NCBI GenBank assembly: GCA_944382785.1
Contig: CALWNO010000004.1
Location: forward strand, 24,799-88,798
Length of the DNA: 64,000 nucleotides
Source: an uncultured Gemmiger sp.
Lineage (GTDB): Bacteria; Bacillota; Clostridia; Oscillospirales; Ruminococcaceae
Reading direction: 5' to 3'
Under the pieces are notes generated by a model. That model was not told where the DNA came from and did no database searches. It saw only the letters and a program-made list of their open reading frames with translations. Of the stretch, positions 57,251-64,000 are shown in pieces. Made by a program: the position numbers and the translations under genes. Positions within the stretch are counted from its first letter, which is position 1; every line of letters starts with the position of its first letter.

Positions 57251-57344
57251 GTTGTCGCTTTTTGCCGCCAAAAAGCGACGGAAAAACCGCCGCCTCGGAA
57301 CGACGGGACTTTTCGCTTCCTTTTCGGGCACGAAAAGGAAGGAC
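57251..57344. repeat. Short copy of a structured hairpin repeat
   Basis: Two 26-base hairpins of 11-base-pair stem and four-base loop (57254-57279, loop CCGC; 57316-57341, loop GGCA on the plus strand) flank a smaller hairpin (57287-57306). Both outer hairpins are close relatives of the outer hairpins of the long repeat at 62432-62842. The core hairpins of the long form are missing, so this looks like an internally deleted inverted pair. It lies between gmd and fcl. Confidence 0.75.
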
Positions 57345-60551: not shown

Positions 60552-60765
60552 CAGAAATTTTCGCAATGGCGGGGTCCCCTCCCGCCCGGCGCTCCGCCTG
60601 GCAGAGACCTTGTAATTCTTGAGCAAAAAAGCCGCCTTTTCTCCGGTGCCGCCCCCGCCCTTTGAAAAAAAGTCGCGTTGCTGCCACAAAAAGCTTTTTG
60701 CGGGTTGCACAAGGCCAACCGGGAAACTTTGGCAATTATTTCAGGTTCTGGGCAATTTTTGCAAC

Positions 60766-60794
60766 TTGTTCCCGAGGGGAAACCTTTGTATAAT
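60766..60794 (+). promoter_or_regulatory. Promoter of uxaC
   Basis: TTGTTC (60766-60771) and a perfect TATAAT (60789-60794) with a 17-base spacer; the leader is about 93 bases. Confidence 0.68.
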
Positions 60795-60893
60795 GGAATC
60801 AGGTTATGTGAACGGGCTGCCCCCTGCTCCCGGTGCCGCCAAGTGCCGCCGCAGCCGCCGCAGCCGCCAAAGTTAGCAAAGGAGTACCGGCTT

Positions 60894-62336
60894 ATGAAAG
60901 CATTTATGGACAAGGATTTCCTGCTGGAAACCAAGACCGCGCAGCACCTGTACCACGACTACGCCGCCAAGCTGCCCATCGTGGACTATCACTGCCACAT
61001 TCCCCCGCAGGAGATCTACGAGGACCGCCGCTTTGAGAACATCGCCCAGGTGTGGCTGGGCGGCCACCAGGTGGCGGACGACGGCACCGACCATTATTTC
61101 GGCGACCACTACAAGTGGCGTGTCATGCGTTCCAACGGTGTGCCGGAAGAGTACATCACCGGCGACAAGCCCGACCGGGAGCGCTTCCAGAAATTTGCCG
61201 AAGCGTTGGAAATGGCCATCGGCAACCCCATGTACACCTGGTGCCACCTGGAGCTGAAGAAGTATTTCGGCTATGAGGGCGTGCTCAACGGCGAGACCGC
61301 CGAAGAGGTGTGGAACCTGTGCAACGACAAGCTGCAGAACGACCCCAACATGACCGTCCGCGGCCTGATCGCCCAGAGCAACGTGGCCATGGTGGGTACC
61401 ACCGACGACCCCATCGACAGCCTGGAATGGCATGAGAAGATCAAGAACGATCCTTCCATCCAGGTGGTAGTGGCCCCGTCCTTCCGCCCGGACAAGGCCG
61501 TGAACATCCAGAAGGCCGGTTTTGTGGAGTACATCCACCAGCTGGAAGAGGTCGTGGGCCGCAAGTTTGCCTGCGCCGACTGCGTGGTGTCCGCCCTGGA
61601 AGAGCGGCTGCAGTTCTTTGTGAAGATGGGCTGCCGCGCTGCCGACCACGGTCTGGACTATGTGCCCTTTGTGGAGACCGACGTGGACAAGGCCACCGCC
61701 GCCTTCAAGAAGGCCATGGCCGGTGAGTCCCTGACCAAGCTGGAGTGCGACCAGTACATCACCTACCTGCTGATCAAGATGGGTCGCCTGTACAAGAAGT
61801 ACAATGTGGTCATGCAGATCCATTACAGCTGCCTGCGCAACGTGAACAAGCGCATGTTCAAGAAGCTGGGCGCCGACACCGGCTTTGACATGATCGCCGT
61901 GACCGACGGCAGCGCTTCCATCAGCAGCCTGCTGTCCGCTCTGACCGAGACCGGCGAATGCCCGAAGGTCATCCTGTACAGCCTGAACTCCTCCGACTTC
62001 GACATGCTGGGCTCCCTGATCGGCTCCTTCCAGGACGACGAGATTCCGGGCAAGATCCAGCTGGGCAGCGCCTGGTGGTTCTGCGACACCGACGACGGCA
62101 TGTACCAGCAGATGAAGACCCTGGGCCGTCTGGGCCTGCTGGGCAACTTCATCGGCATGCTCACCGACAGCCGCAGCTTCCTGAGCTACACCCGCCACGA
62201 GCTGTTCCGCCGCCTGATGTGCAACCTCATCGGCAACTGGGTGGAGAACGGCCAGTATCCCAACGACGACAAGACCCTGAAGAAGATCGTGGAGGGTATC
62301 AGCTACTACAACGCCAAGCGGTATTTCGGTCTGTAA
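60894..62336 (+). CDS. uxaC: Glucuronate isomerase
   Basis: A 480-residue metal-dependent uronate isomerase that converts glucuronate to fructuronate, or galacturonate to tagaturonate. The amidohydrolase-like metal site starts with VDYHCHIPPQEIY (about 23-35); LVGTTDDPIDSLEWH-like sequence (MVGTTDDPIDSLEWH) and DRRFENIAQVWLGGHQV are family hallmarks, and the C-terminal FIGMLTDSRSFLSYTRHELFRR is complete. The start at 60894 follows AAAGGAG; the open frame upstream crosses promoter sequence. It stands alone, without uxaB, uxuA or kdg genes nearby, and ends at a strong terminator. Confidence 0.96.
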   Translation: MKAFMDKDFLLETKTAQHLYHDYAAKLPIVDYHCHIPPQEIYEDRRFENIAQVWLGGHQVADDGTDHYFGDHYKWRVMRSNGVPEEYITGDKPDRERFQKFAEALEMAIGNPMYTWCHLELKKYFGYEGVLNGETAEEVWNLCNDKLQNDPNMTVRGLIAQSNVAMVGTTDDPIDSLEWHEKIKNDPSIQVVVAPSFRPDKAVNIQKAGFVEYIHQLEEVVGRKFACADCVVSALEERLQFFVKMGCRAADHGLDYVPFVETDVDKATAAFKKAMAGESLTKLECDQYITYLLIKMGRLYKKYNVVMQIHYSCLRNVNKRMFKKLGADTGFDMIAVTDGSASISSLLSALTETGECPKVILYSLNSSDFDMLGSLIGSFQDDEIPGKIQLGSAWWFCDTDDGMYQQMKTLGRLGLLGNFIGMLTDSRSFLSYTRHELFRRLMCNLIGNWVENGQYPNDDKTLKKIVEGISYYNAKRYFGL

Positions 62337-62356
62337 GATTTGTTTGCAGCGTATAC

Positions 62357-62392
62357 AAAAAGGAGAGAACCGGAAAGGTTCTCTCCTTTTTT
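62357..62392 (+). terminator. Terminator of uxaC
   Basis: AAAAAGGAGAGAACC pairs with GGTTCTCTCCTTTTT around a short loop and is followed by further T. Confidence 0.9.
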
Positions 62393-62431
62393 GGGTTTTC
62401 TTTTTACCCGGCAGCGGGTGCCGACCAGGAT

Positions 62432-62588
62432 GTTGTCGCTTTTTGACGCCAAAAAGCGACGGAAAAAGCGCCACCGTTCCGATGCGGTGGACGCCGGCTG
62501 GGGCTGCGGCCCCAGACCCCAAGATGCGGCCACCTTGCGACGGCCTTCTCACCGGTCTGGGGACCGGTGAGCAAGGAATGGATTTAAT
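62432..62588 (+). repeat. Structured repeat, left copy
   Basis: About 157 bases with four hairpins: A 62435-62460 (11-bp stem, loop ACGC), B 62471-62490 (6-bp stem, loop of eight), C 62498-62515 (7-bp stem, loop TGCG) and D 62548-62571 (10-bp stem, loop TGGG). Linkers between them are 10, 7 and 32 bases. It ends in GAGCAAGGAATGG and an AT-rich tail. The inverted partner at 62685-62842 keeps the same order, loops and spacing. Confidence 0.85.
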
Positions 62589-62684
62589 ACCATTTCCCGG
62601 TAACGGGTGCTAACGGCTCTCCCTCAAGGTTGTACCCAACCCGGCTGCTCTTTTCCGTTTTACCAACGGCATTTCGGCCACGCC

Positions 62685-62842
62685 ATTAAAATCATTTTCC
62701 TTGCTCAGGCCCCCCAGGGCCTGAGTAGGCCGTCGTAAGGTGGCCGCACTCCCCGGGTCCAGGGCCGCAGCCCTGGTCGGCGGCCGCCGCATCGAAACGG
62801 CGGGCCCTTTTCGTTTCCTTTTCGGGCACGAAAAGGAAAGAC
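62685..62842 (-). repeat. Structured repeat, right copy (inverted)
   Basis: The minus-strand partner of 62432-62588. Hairpins: A 62814-62839 (11-bp stem, loop TGCC), B 62784-62803, C 62759-62776 (loop TGCG) and D 62704-62725 (9-bp stem, loop TGGG), with linkers of 10, 7 and 33 bases. Stem bases differ from the left copy in paired fashion, for example CTGGGGC/GCCCCAG against CCAGGGC/GCCCTGG in hairpin C. Linker sequence TGCGGCCACCTT(A/G)CGACGG is shared. Confidence 0.85.
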
Positions 62843-62909
62843 ACCCCGGCAAGCAGCCGTCACACCCGGCAGCAACGGGGTAAATCAACCCCTTCTCTGC
62901 TGTGCAGCA

Positions 62910-62930
62910 CCTCCCCTTGCACAGGGGAGG
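62910..62930. repeat. Isolated hairpin
   Basis: CCTCCCCT and AGGGGAGG pair around a TGCAC loop. It lies outside the structured repeat and just before the MarR-gene terminator; no function is assigned. Confidence 0.5.
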
Positions 62931-62956
62931 CTTATGGCAAAAAGCCATACAACCAC

Positions 62957-62988
62957 AAAAGGCCCCCCGGAATCCCGGGGAGCCTTTT
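62957..62988 (-). terminator. Terminator of the MarR-type gene
   Basis: On the minus strand AAAAGGCTCCCCGG pairs with CCGGGGGGCCTTTT (one wobble pair) around a four-base loop. The wobble favours the minus strand as the functional one. Confidence 0.85.
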
Positions 62989-63029
62989 GCTATTTGAAGA
63001 GAAAATTGAGAAAGAGATTGTCAAAAAAG

Positions 63030-63497
63030 TTATTCCGGCTTTGCCTCCGGGCTGCGGGTGGGCAAAGGAATCTCGGGCATGAGTTCGTCCGAGACAATGC
63101 GCAGCATCCGTTCCAGGTTCTGCAGTTCCTCCACGGTAAACCGCTGCTTGGCCCGGTCCACCACCTTCTGCAGATAGGCATAGCTGATGCTGTAATAGTC
63201 AATATATTTGCGGGTGGGGTACAGGTGGTATTCGCGCTTGTCGGTCTCCGACTGCACCTTCTTCACATACCCCTTCTTCACCAGATTGTTGATCTTGTAG
63301 GCGGCGTTGGGGGTGGACAGGTTCATCATGTTGGAGAACTCCGCGATGGTCGGGCTGCCCAGCGCCATGATGACCTCCATGCAGAAAGATTCCACGGTGG
63401 TCAGGGTGGCTTCGCGGGTGGCAAACTTGTTGAAAACCTGTTTGTAAAAGTGCAGCTTGAACTTGGTATACACCTGTTCAAAGGCCTGGTCCAGCAT
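63030..63497 (-). CDS. MarR-family regulator next to fabZ (possible FabT)
   Basis: A 155-residue winged-helix protein. PTIAEFSNMMNLSTPNAAYKIN is the helix-turn-helix, followed by LVKKGYVKKVQSETDKREYHLYPT, the wing of MarR proteins. The start at 63497 follows AGGAGG; a longer frame to 63638 lacks an upstream site. It is read from the same strand as fabZ, 137 bases downstream of it. In other Firmicutes a MarR protein (FabT) controls fatty-acid synthesis genes, so a similar role is possible here, but its position after fabZ rather than before the operon differs. TATACT at 63595-63600 (minus) may be its own promoter. Confidence 0.85.
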   Translation of the reverse strand: MLDQAFEQVYTKFKLHFYKQVFNKFATREATLTTVESFCMEVIMALGSPTIAEFSNMMNLSTPNAAYKINNLVKKGYVKKVQSETDKREYHLYPTRKYIDYYSISYAYLQKVVDRAKQRFTVEELQNLERMLRIVSDELMPEIPLPTRSPEAKPE

Positions 63498-63634
63498 GGC
63501 AAAAACCTCCTGGGGATCGGGTCGGCGGGCGGCCGTACCGCGGGCGCGGCGCAGCCGGGCGGCGGCCCGGATCTGTTTTGTATCCTTACAGGTCAGTATA
63601 CCATGTTTCGGCGCGATTGAACAGCCCTGTGTGG

Positions 63635-64000
63635 TCACTGGTTGTTCTCCCGGTCGACGATGGCAAAGGTCAGCTCGGCGTTGACGGCGCGCACACCGTC
63701 CACCCAGGCCGTCGCCTTGCCAACGCCCACAGGCCCGTGGCGTTCCACCAGTTCACATTCCAGGGTCAGCACGTCCCCGGGCACCACCTGACGGCGGAAC
63801 CGGGCGTTCTTCACCCCGCCGAACAGCGCCAGCTTGCCTTTGGCGCCCTCCTCACTGAGGGCGGCCACGGCGCCGCACTGGGCCAGGGCTTCCAGAATGA
63901 GCACCCCGGGCATCACCGGCTGACCGGGAAAATGCCCCTGGAAAAAGGGTTCGTTCATGCTCACGCACTTGATGCCCCGGGCCCACTGGCCGGGCTGGTA
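63635..64000 (-). CDS. fabZ: 3-hydroxyacyl-ACP dehydratase FabZ (5' end cut by window)
   Basis: The reverse-strand frame enters from beyond 64000 and ends at 63635, giving 121 residues of a usual 140-150. [28 protein letters not shown] contains the catalytic histidine (GHFPG) and [10 protein letters not shown] the catalytic glutamate of hot-dog-fold FabZ; the cytoplasmic enzyme dehydrates 3-hydroxyacyl-ACP during fatty-acid elongation. The remaining strands are complete. It is probably within a fab operon extending to the right of the window. Confidence 0.93.

Follow-up and report, generated by a model that had tools for sequence, protein, structure and literature searches.

Within the 64-kb stretch of DNA from an uncultured Gemmiger species that we analysed (the window), an element made of two inverted arms lies between a uronate-isomerase-like gene (60678-62336, + strand) and a MarR-like gene (63030-63638, - strand), both named from a reading of the ORFs. 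A terminator scan places a terminator-like hairpin 3' of the uronate-isomerase-like gene (62357-62391), an inverted repeat lies ahead of the end of the MarR-like gene (62956-62989), and a simple consensus scan of 62250-63100 returned no promoter-like site. Spurious reading frames cross the arms. A second, unrelated repeat of the CTCCCCTGTGTAAGGGGAGCTG..CGAAGGCGACTGAGGGGTTG type occupies 62879-62936 and recurs at loci L272, L196, L175 and L014; by eye, repeats of this type share several intergenic sites with the element and also lie in some element centres.

The left arm (62435-62571, + strand) carries, in order, hairpins A (62435-62460; 11 bp, loop ACGC), B (62471-62490; 6 bp, loop TTCCGATG), C (62498-62515; 7 bp, loop TGCG), E (62528-62545; GGCC-N10-GGCC) and D (62548-62571; 10 bp, loop TGGG), and matches covariance model R1 with 143.5 bits. 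The right arm (62704-62839, - strand) presents the same order on the opposite strand, with A at 62814-62839 (11 bp, loop TGCC), B at 62784-62803, C at 62759-62776 (7 bp, loop TGCG), E at 62728-62745 and D at 62704-62725 (9 bp, loop TGGG); its R1 match of 163.3 bits is that of one of the model's own sequences. Each arm is about 136 nt long, and the A-B, B-C and C-D linkers measure 10, 7 and 32 nt on the left and 10, 7 and 33 nt on the right. The linker 3' of A holds three bases that are complementary to the A loop and may contact it: GCG (62468-62470, in the left linker 62461-62470) faces loop CGC (62447-62449), and GGC (62804-62806, in the right linker 62804-62813) faces loop GCC (62825-62827). 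Between the arms lies a centre (62572-62703) that is poorly conserved between copies, with a small AATGG..CCATT hairpin at its left, and outside them lie variable palindromes whose limits, drawn by eye, are approximate: Z (62408-62432) on the left and one or more, Z' (62845-62876), on the right. The initial annotation had described hairpins A-B-C-D in shared order in two inverted copies, with loops TGCG and TGGG for C and D and the same linker lengths; re-reading of coordinates and sequence found this right to the base, but the inventory had missed the possible hairpin E within the 32/33-nt linker, the variable outer palindromes and the complementarity between the A loop and the following linker. 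The whole element folds with a z score of -13.4 (0 of 100 shuffles as good), the left arm with -5.5 (0 of 200) and the right arm with -2.7 (1 of 200).

The window element is a single member of a non-coding repeat family dispersed through intergenic sites of the chromosome. In its own genome blastn returned 86 matches on both strands, many of them the two strands of a single palindromic copy, and a hand count resolves the 86 into 37 separate stretches of the loci examined; R1 returned 64 matches. The arm unit is A-linker-B-C, to which E and D are added in the own genome and its closest relatives, and Gemmiger often carries two arms facing each other across a centre that is little conserved, most full own-genome arms running + then - with a gap of ~101-105. 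An arm profile gave 128 arm matches in 41 loci, drawn from five genomes of the genus. Many of these form inverted pairs, while others stand alone or belong to short A-B-A' copies; one such short copy, consisting of A-B-A' only with outer palindromes on both sides, lies in the same window at 57254-57341. Across Gemmiger, R1 at E <= 0.001 found arms in 27 of 35 genomes, with 74 matches in G009, 64 in the own genome, 50 in G021, 44 in G014, 42 in G041, 37 in G044, 27 in G005 and 22 in G007, counts that are not element counts because a short palindromic copy can be matched once on each strand; the other eight, single-contig G042 included, gave no R1 match. The element was found by blastn in 13 of 41 genomes, the own one included, all of the same genus. 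A pattern scan gave, among the matches listed, Gemmiger sequences (G. formicilis An812, MAG E30 bin329 and MAG BRZ_EN bin73) and two contigs labelled Faecalibacterium sp. UBA1360, which belongs to the same genus in the database used; many other listed matches, in unrelated bacteria, were taken as chance for a 20-letter pattern.

Copy numbers are lower bounds, because the repeat breaks assemblies and arms sit at contig ends: 11 listed arms of G009 start 10 nt or less from base 1 of their contig. G009 contigs C3, C19, C24, C26, C34, C70, C81, C91, C92, C111 and C134 start inside an arm. An unusually dense run of 14 full arms occupies contig C16 of G014 (L175-L177, 53.8 kb). Seven own-genome copies (L010:3651, L014:4175, L014:10803, L015:3398, L016:3401, L020:3370 and L022:8894) share the same ~90-nt replacement inside right hairpin A, which starts GTTTGCCCCGCAGGGGCAAGC and is followed by a partly intact 3' arm. 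Other arms are split by ~106-130 nt near profile position 79-90, in or just after hairpin C (L183 1595-1864, L020 9597-9871, L022 5537-5810, L022 8302-8575 and L026 3100-3371).

Covariation shows that hairpins A-D are paired, that 3-4 nt of the linker after A complement the A loop, and that the state of one linker base follows that of an A stem pair. In alignment A1 (20 of 74 arms, chosen for an 11-bp A and a 9-bp D, with one gap column only), 99.1% of cells pair with loop-linker pairs included, against 88.9% after shuffling; 13 of its 40 pairs changed on both sides, and its cells hold 92 two-sided changes against 2 one-sided. Among 90 R1-fitted arm matches from many species (86 distinct), 34 of 37 pairs carry two-sided changes and 98.0% of cells pair, compared with 73.8% shuffled, in an alignment that leans to structure. 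Alignments A2 and A3 were fitted to the model structure, A3 comprising 28 of the 39 sources of A2; loci L310 and L345 were set aside. For a tree-aware test we used our own R-scape-like script, rather than R-scape itself, on a structure-fitted alignment, taking Fitch states on a FastTree tree, re-placing substitutions per branch in 100 null alignments and scoring with an APC-corrected G statistic. With 51 arms and 135 columns, 19 column pairs reached E <= 0.05: 15 in hairpins, two between the A loop and the linker (13-36 and 14-35, pseudoknot-like) and two between a linker base and a stem pair (10-33 and 17-33, triple-like), in which linker A goes with T-A and G with C-G. The remaining 22 of 37 hairpin pairs, several of which hardly vary, were not significant, and all four E pairs are among them, so that hairpin E is proposed in both arms from folding and sequence.

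The initial annotation had pointed to stems that differ between the arms and yet remain paired. The compensatory change is real, but the left/right difference in D is present in 13 of 15 aligned own-genome copies and is thus mostly inherited within this genome, not the product of many independent events; independent compensatory events come from other types and other species. From the same covariation it had concluded that a structure, as RNA or single-stranded DNA, was selected: further copies exist and covariation does exceed the tree-aware null, but selection on RNA would be only one possible cause.

In the loci examined, 129 A units fall into 16 types, in most of which loop positions 2-4 are matched in reverse complement by the three bases that follow the linker A-run, a run as long as that of the stem. 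Among 40 loop/linker combinations from Gemmiger and other Clostridia, a count that keeps about seven resembling chance hairpins, 31 show complementarity of at least 3 nt, compared with 12.2 on average and at most 22 over 5,000 permutations. Complementarity extends to 35 of the 40 if an inverted loop is allowed, and A-runs are equal in 29. The exceptions that fit only with an inverted loop are CCGC loops with ACCGC linkers (16 copies) and ACGC with ACGC in G179 and G328; ACGT and G159 are complementary neither way.

The linker also gives a hint, and only a hint, of a purine third strand along the A stem. Of 40 units, 16 have a longer mirror match, 10 a longer direct match and 14 a tie; both kinds of match exceeded all 2,000 permutations. 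Where the A-tract is broken by G (units from G005, G006, G011 and G015, two from G041, others from G070 and G302, plus the G007 pair), the mirror match was longer in 14 of 16 units, the two G007 units being ties. In plain A-run units the direct match was often longer, because the next base, part of the loop complement, is G. We considered as an alternative that the linker, as a direct repeat, pairs with the 5' arm of A.

One way to account for such covariation, which includes the loop-linker pairs, is that the arm is transcribed and acts as a structured RNA, a cis element or small RNA with hairpins and an H-type pseudoknot bearing an A-rich third strand. In favour of this, loops are often kept while stems change: the C loop is TGCG in 61 of 73 parsed arms (one of the 74 failed the C parser), and B loops are of the TT(C/T)CGA type, with similar ones in distant genomes. 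Wobble pairs, however, are almost absent. The hand-parsed stems A-D of the 74 arms comprise 2,445 Watson-Crick, 4 G.T, 2 A.C and 3 other pairs in 2,454 cells, and the structure-fitted set contains 39 G.T and 22 A.C in 2,865. A.C is the strand-mirror of G.U, and neither set shows a preference for G.U over it, the two being about equal by hand parsing. The promoter scan also speaks against this reading, as do the 15 class-level loci, whose flanking genes are unrelated and show no shared neighbour by eye. We regard a structured RNA as unlikely, although it retains appreciable weight.

The same stems carry other marks. Loops occur inverted (A as GCGT and ACGC; D as TGGG, with a single CCCA), and hairpin types change places both between arms and between copies. 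A types differ between the arms of one element; at the rnpA-yidC site in G009 and the jag-mnmE site in G014, the left C type of the own genome is found on the right and the right one on the left, a pattern of cassette exchange. Together with the near absence of G.T, inverted loops and swapped types lead us to place the upkeep of the stems at the DNA level. According to PMC8794818, RNA compensatory change is commonly thought to pass through G.U, and multi-base compensatory change with inverted loops is ascribed to template switching. The pattern here favours change that is concerted at the DNA level, probably by template switching and cassette exchange, over RNA-style change via wobble. Carried to its limit, such a process could leave a neutral by-product, in which hairpins, once introduced, are retained and altered through template switching and gene conversion while having no function; concerted two-sided changes, inverted loops and cassette swaps would all follow from it. 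Loop-linker and linker-stem covariation nevertheless extends outside any one hairpin, and similar B loops recur in distant families, so we consider pure neutrality improbable. Template switching inside a hairpin does not make loop-linker complementarity; some selection on the fold is therefore likely, and RNA could supply it.

Gene context bears on another possibility, that the element is a two-way transcription terminator or insulator, each arm presenting, read outward, hairpin B followed by a T-run that is the complement of the linker A-run. The terminator scan did call B plus T-run on the minus strand of the left arm, and the genes flanking 22 own-genome copies, judged from heuristic gene calls with no genome-wide baseline, are codirectional for 10, convergent for 8 and divergent for 2, with 2 having no call. 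Yet a few bases intervene between B and the T-run, the gene to the left already has its own terminator-like hairpin, and hairpins A, C and D and the loop-linker pairing would be left without a reason; termination as the explanation strikes us as decidedly improbable.

Beyond the genus, R1 at E <= 0.001 matched 5 of 117 genomes of the order, the own genome included, and 0 of 6 other genomes of the family. The four non-Gemmiger matches (G067, G070, G114 and G119) are weak, at 26-30 bits with R1 and 23-36 bits with R2, a model built from a wider set; by eye they may resemble the family in having an A-type hairpin, a linker and B or C, an uncertain likeness, and G070 gave no match in the stricter class-level search. 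That search, with R2 at E <= 1e-5, matched 15 of 391 sampled genomes of the class including the own one, the other 14 lying in eight families. Class-level arm matches scored 31.6-56.4 bits, compared with 13.4 bits for the best of 82 unrelated control loci; E-values of both models are rough, the models being short-calibrated. The class-level arms that could be read share a strong hairpin A and an A-run in the linker; in most of them a hairpin B is present too, its loop resembling TT(C/T)CG. Since loop-linker pairs lie outside both models, they provide an independent check on distant matches: in the 11 class-level genomes in which a unit was found, 8 are complementary as read, 2 only with the loop inverted and 1 not at all, while our script found no loop/linker unit in G221, G302 and G464, the other three of the 14.

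The covariance-model search thus agrees with the earlier suggestion of a structured family, hairpin order being kept in related genomes. An Rfam gathering scan gave 0 matches in the window and 0 in 18 loci from relatives; seven sub-threshold Rfam matches, two of them on arms, are weak and were taken as chance. Plasmid and phage collections returned nothing by blastn with the window element, nor did arms from L344 (plasmids and phages), L338 (plasmids) and L332 (phages), and six weak plasmid records at E 0.9 for a 106-nt G006 query were taken as chance. A core pattern picked up five loci in viral contigs, none of which scored within the limit as R2 controls, and a proteobacterial look-alike repeat gave 0 matches as a pattern in the same kind of contigs. 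Open-licence PMC returned no paper on intergenic repeats in Gemmiger, wider searches there gave no title or abstract opening in which we recognised the element, and the passages checked in PMC3110155 contain nothing on it. As far as the open-licence PMC literature shows, the repeat family is previously undescribed.

We compared orthologous sites between species by eye. Between uxaC and marR, the site of the window copy, five loci could be set side by side: the own genome and G014 hold the element, G009 has a small palindrome only, and G007 and G003 have nothing similar. Of seven genomes read between rnpA and yidC, three (the own one, G014 and G009) are occupied, three (G042, G018 and G007) lack the element and G021 carries its own divergent arm; between jag and mnmE, the only two readable genomes, the own one and G014, are both occupied. 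Other sites are common to two species, and because some are shared by two or three, many copies are old. The copies at L020:2973-3374 and L015:3006-3402 have no counterpart in G014, which holds another repeat there, and G023 lacks two G014 copies. At four aligned sites we found no target-site duplication and no clean empty site, two having another repeat in the lacking genome and two having diverged flanks. These sites weigh on whether the repeat is a miniature inverted-repeat element derived from an ordinary DDE transposon, in which long inverted arms, dispersed copies and internal deletions would be natural; the sites compared show neither the duplication nor the clean empty site, arms occur alone and the ends are variable palindromes, making a DDE origin highly improbable. 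The more general idea of a hairpin-ended mobile element, raised in the initial annotation, is plausible for repeats so dispersed and patchy, but no mobiliser or target-site duplication was found.

We considered a Y1 (RAYT) transposase as a candidate mobiliser and rejected it, since Y1 presence does not follow arm counts across Gemmiger. Y1 matches occur in 18 of 31 Gemmiger genomes; G021 and G007, with 50 and 22 arm matches, have no Y1 (in drafts 93 and 90% complete), and G042 has eight Y1 matches and no arms. The own genome has three IS200-type Y1 loci (L055, L056 and L057), one of them truncated, which look like ordinary IS200-type copies, and by eye no element lies at their flanks. As for the features of REP elements, the paired arms and the whole-element fold amount to an inverted doublet able to form a hairpin. 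The repeat is not a short single palindrome and has no cognate Y1 flanked by it, and GTAG, far from being a constant tag, lies between D and E in some arms only (74 arms, by eye). For these reasons we do not file the element under REP/REPIN.

The best reading, which we hold tentatively and at slightly less than an even chance, is a REP/REPIN-like, non-autonomous, folding DNA repeat with a mobiliser acting in trans. Dispersed copies, patchiness between species and sites occupied in one species and lacking in another argue for it; against it stand the failure to find a mobiliser, the lack of tracking by Y1 and the age of many copies. The arm would act as a single DNA strand, exposed during replication and folded into hairpins with a loop-linker pseudoknot and possibly a purine third strand. 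A putative trans-acting recombinase or transposase would recognise and copy it, much as TnpA-REP reportedly does with REP elements. Stems would stay perfect through template switching in hairpins and exchange of whole cassettes, which replace both sides at once, and short A-B-A' copies and solo outer palindromes may be remnants of recombination between inverted hairpins. A broader proposal, which we find possible but somewhat unlikely, is that the arms are class-wide mobile or domesticated DNA elements of Clostridia, whose signal would be a folded single strand, namely a hairpin with its loop paired to the purine linker after it and that linker also tracking the stem in the manner of a third strand (pseudoknot plus triplex). 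A putative enzyme would read it, template switching would keep it perfect, and amplification in Gemmiger would have produced palindromes with eight to ten hairpins.

Dispersed structured repeats are common. Few of them show loop-to-linker covariation, and none that our searches of open-licence PMC brought up has this arm. The family offers a natural test of whether stems evolve via wobble pairs, as in RNA, or in one step, as in DNA template switching, and it points to a putative enzyme of gut Clostridia that may mobilise single-stranded DNA in folded form. In practical terms, the repeat breaks assemblies.

Several known systems invite comparison. The Bacillus cereus bcr repeats, streptococcal BOX elements and MITE-like repeats of Gram-positive bacteria are likewise dispersed, intergenic and modular, with conserved folding; they are not known to have a multi-hairpin arm or a loop-linker contact. 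In the RNA H-type pseudoknot, a loop pairs with a downstream strand and an A-rich linker lies beside a U-A rich stem. The arm shares the loop/downstream pairing and the A-rich linker, but has a stem of ~9-15 bp bridged by a short linker, occurs as dispersed repeats and shows almost no G.U. REP/REPIN elements with RAYT (TnpA-REP) are, according to PMC3116915 and PMC8266576, similarly intergenic, dispersed, palindromic and non-autonomous, and form inverted doublets predicted to fold as single strands; the ~136-nt multi-hairpin arm differs from the short, single REP palindrome of 20-40 bp, as do its loop-linker contact and the absence of a Y1/RAYT tracking the copies. Hairpin evolution by template switching, as presented in PMC8794818, has in common with the arm several simultaneous compensatory changes, perfect stems and inverted 4-nt loops, but is described there for RNA genes (rRNA and microRNA), whereas here it would operate on a dispersed repeat with loop-linker covariation.
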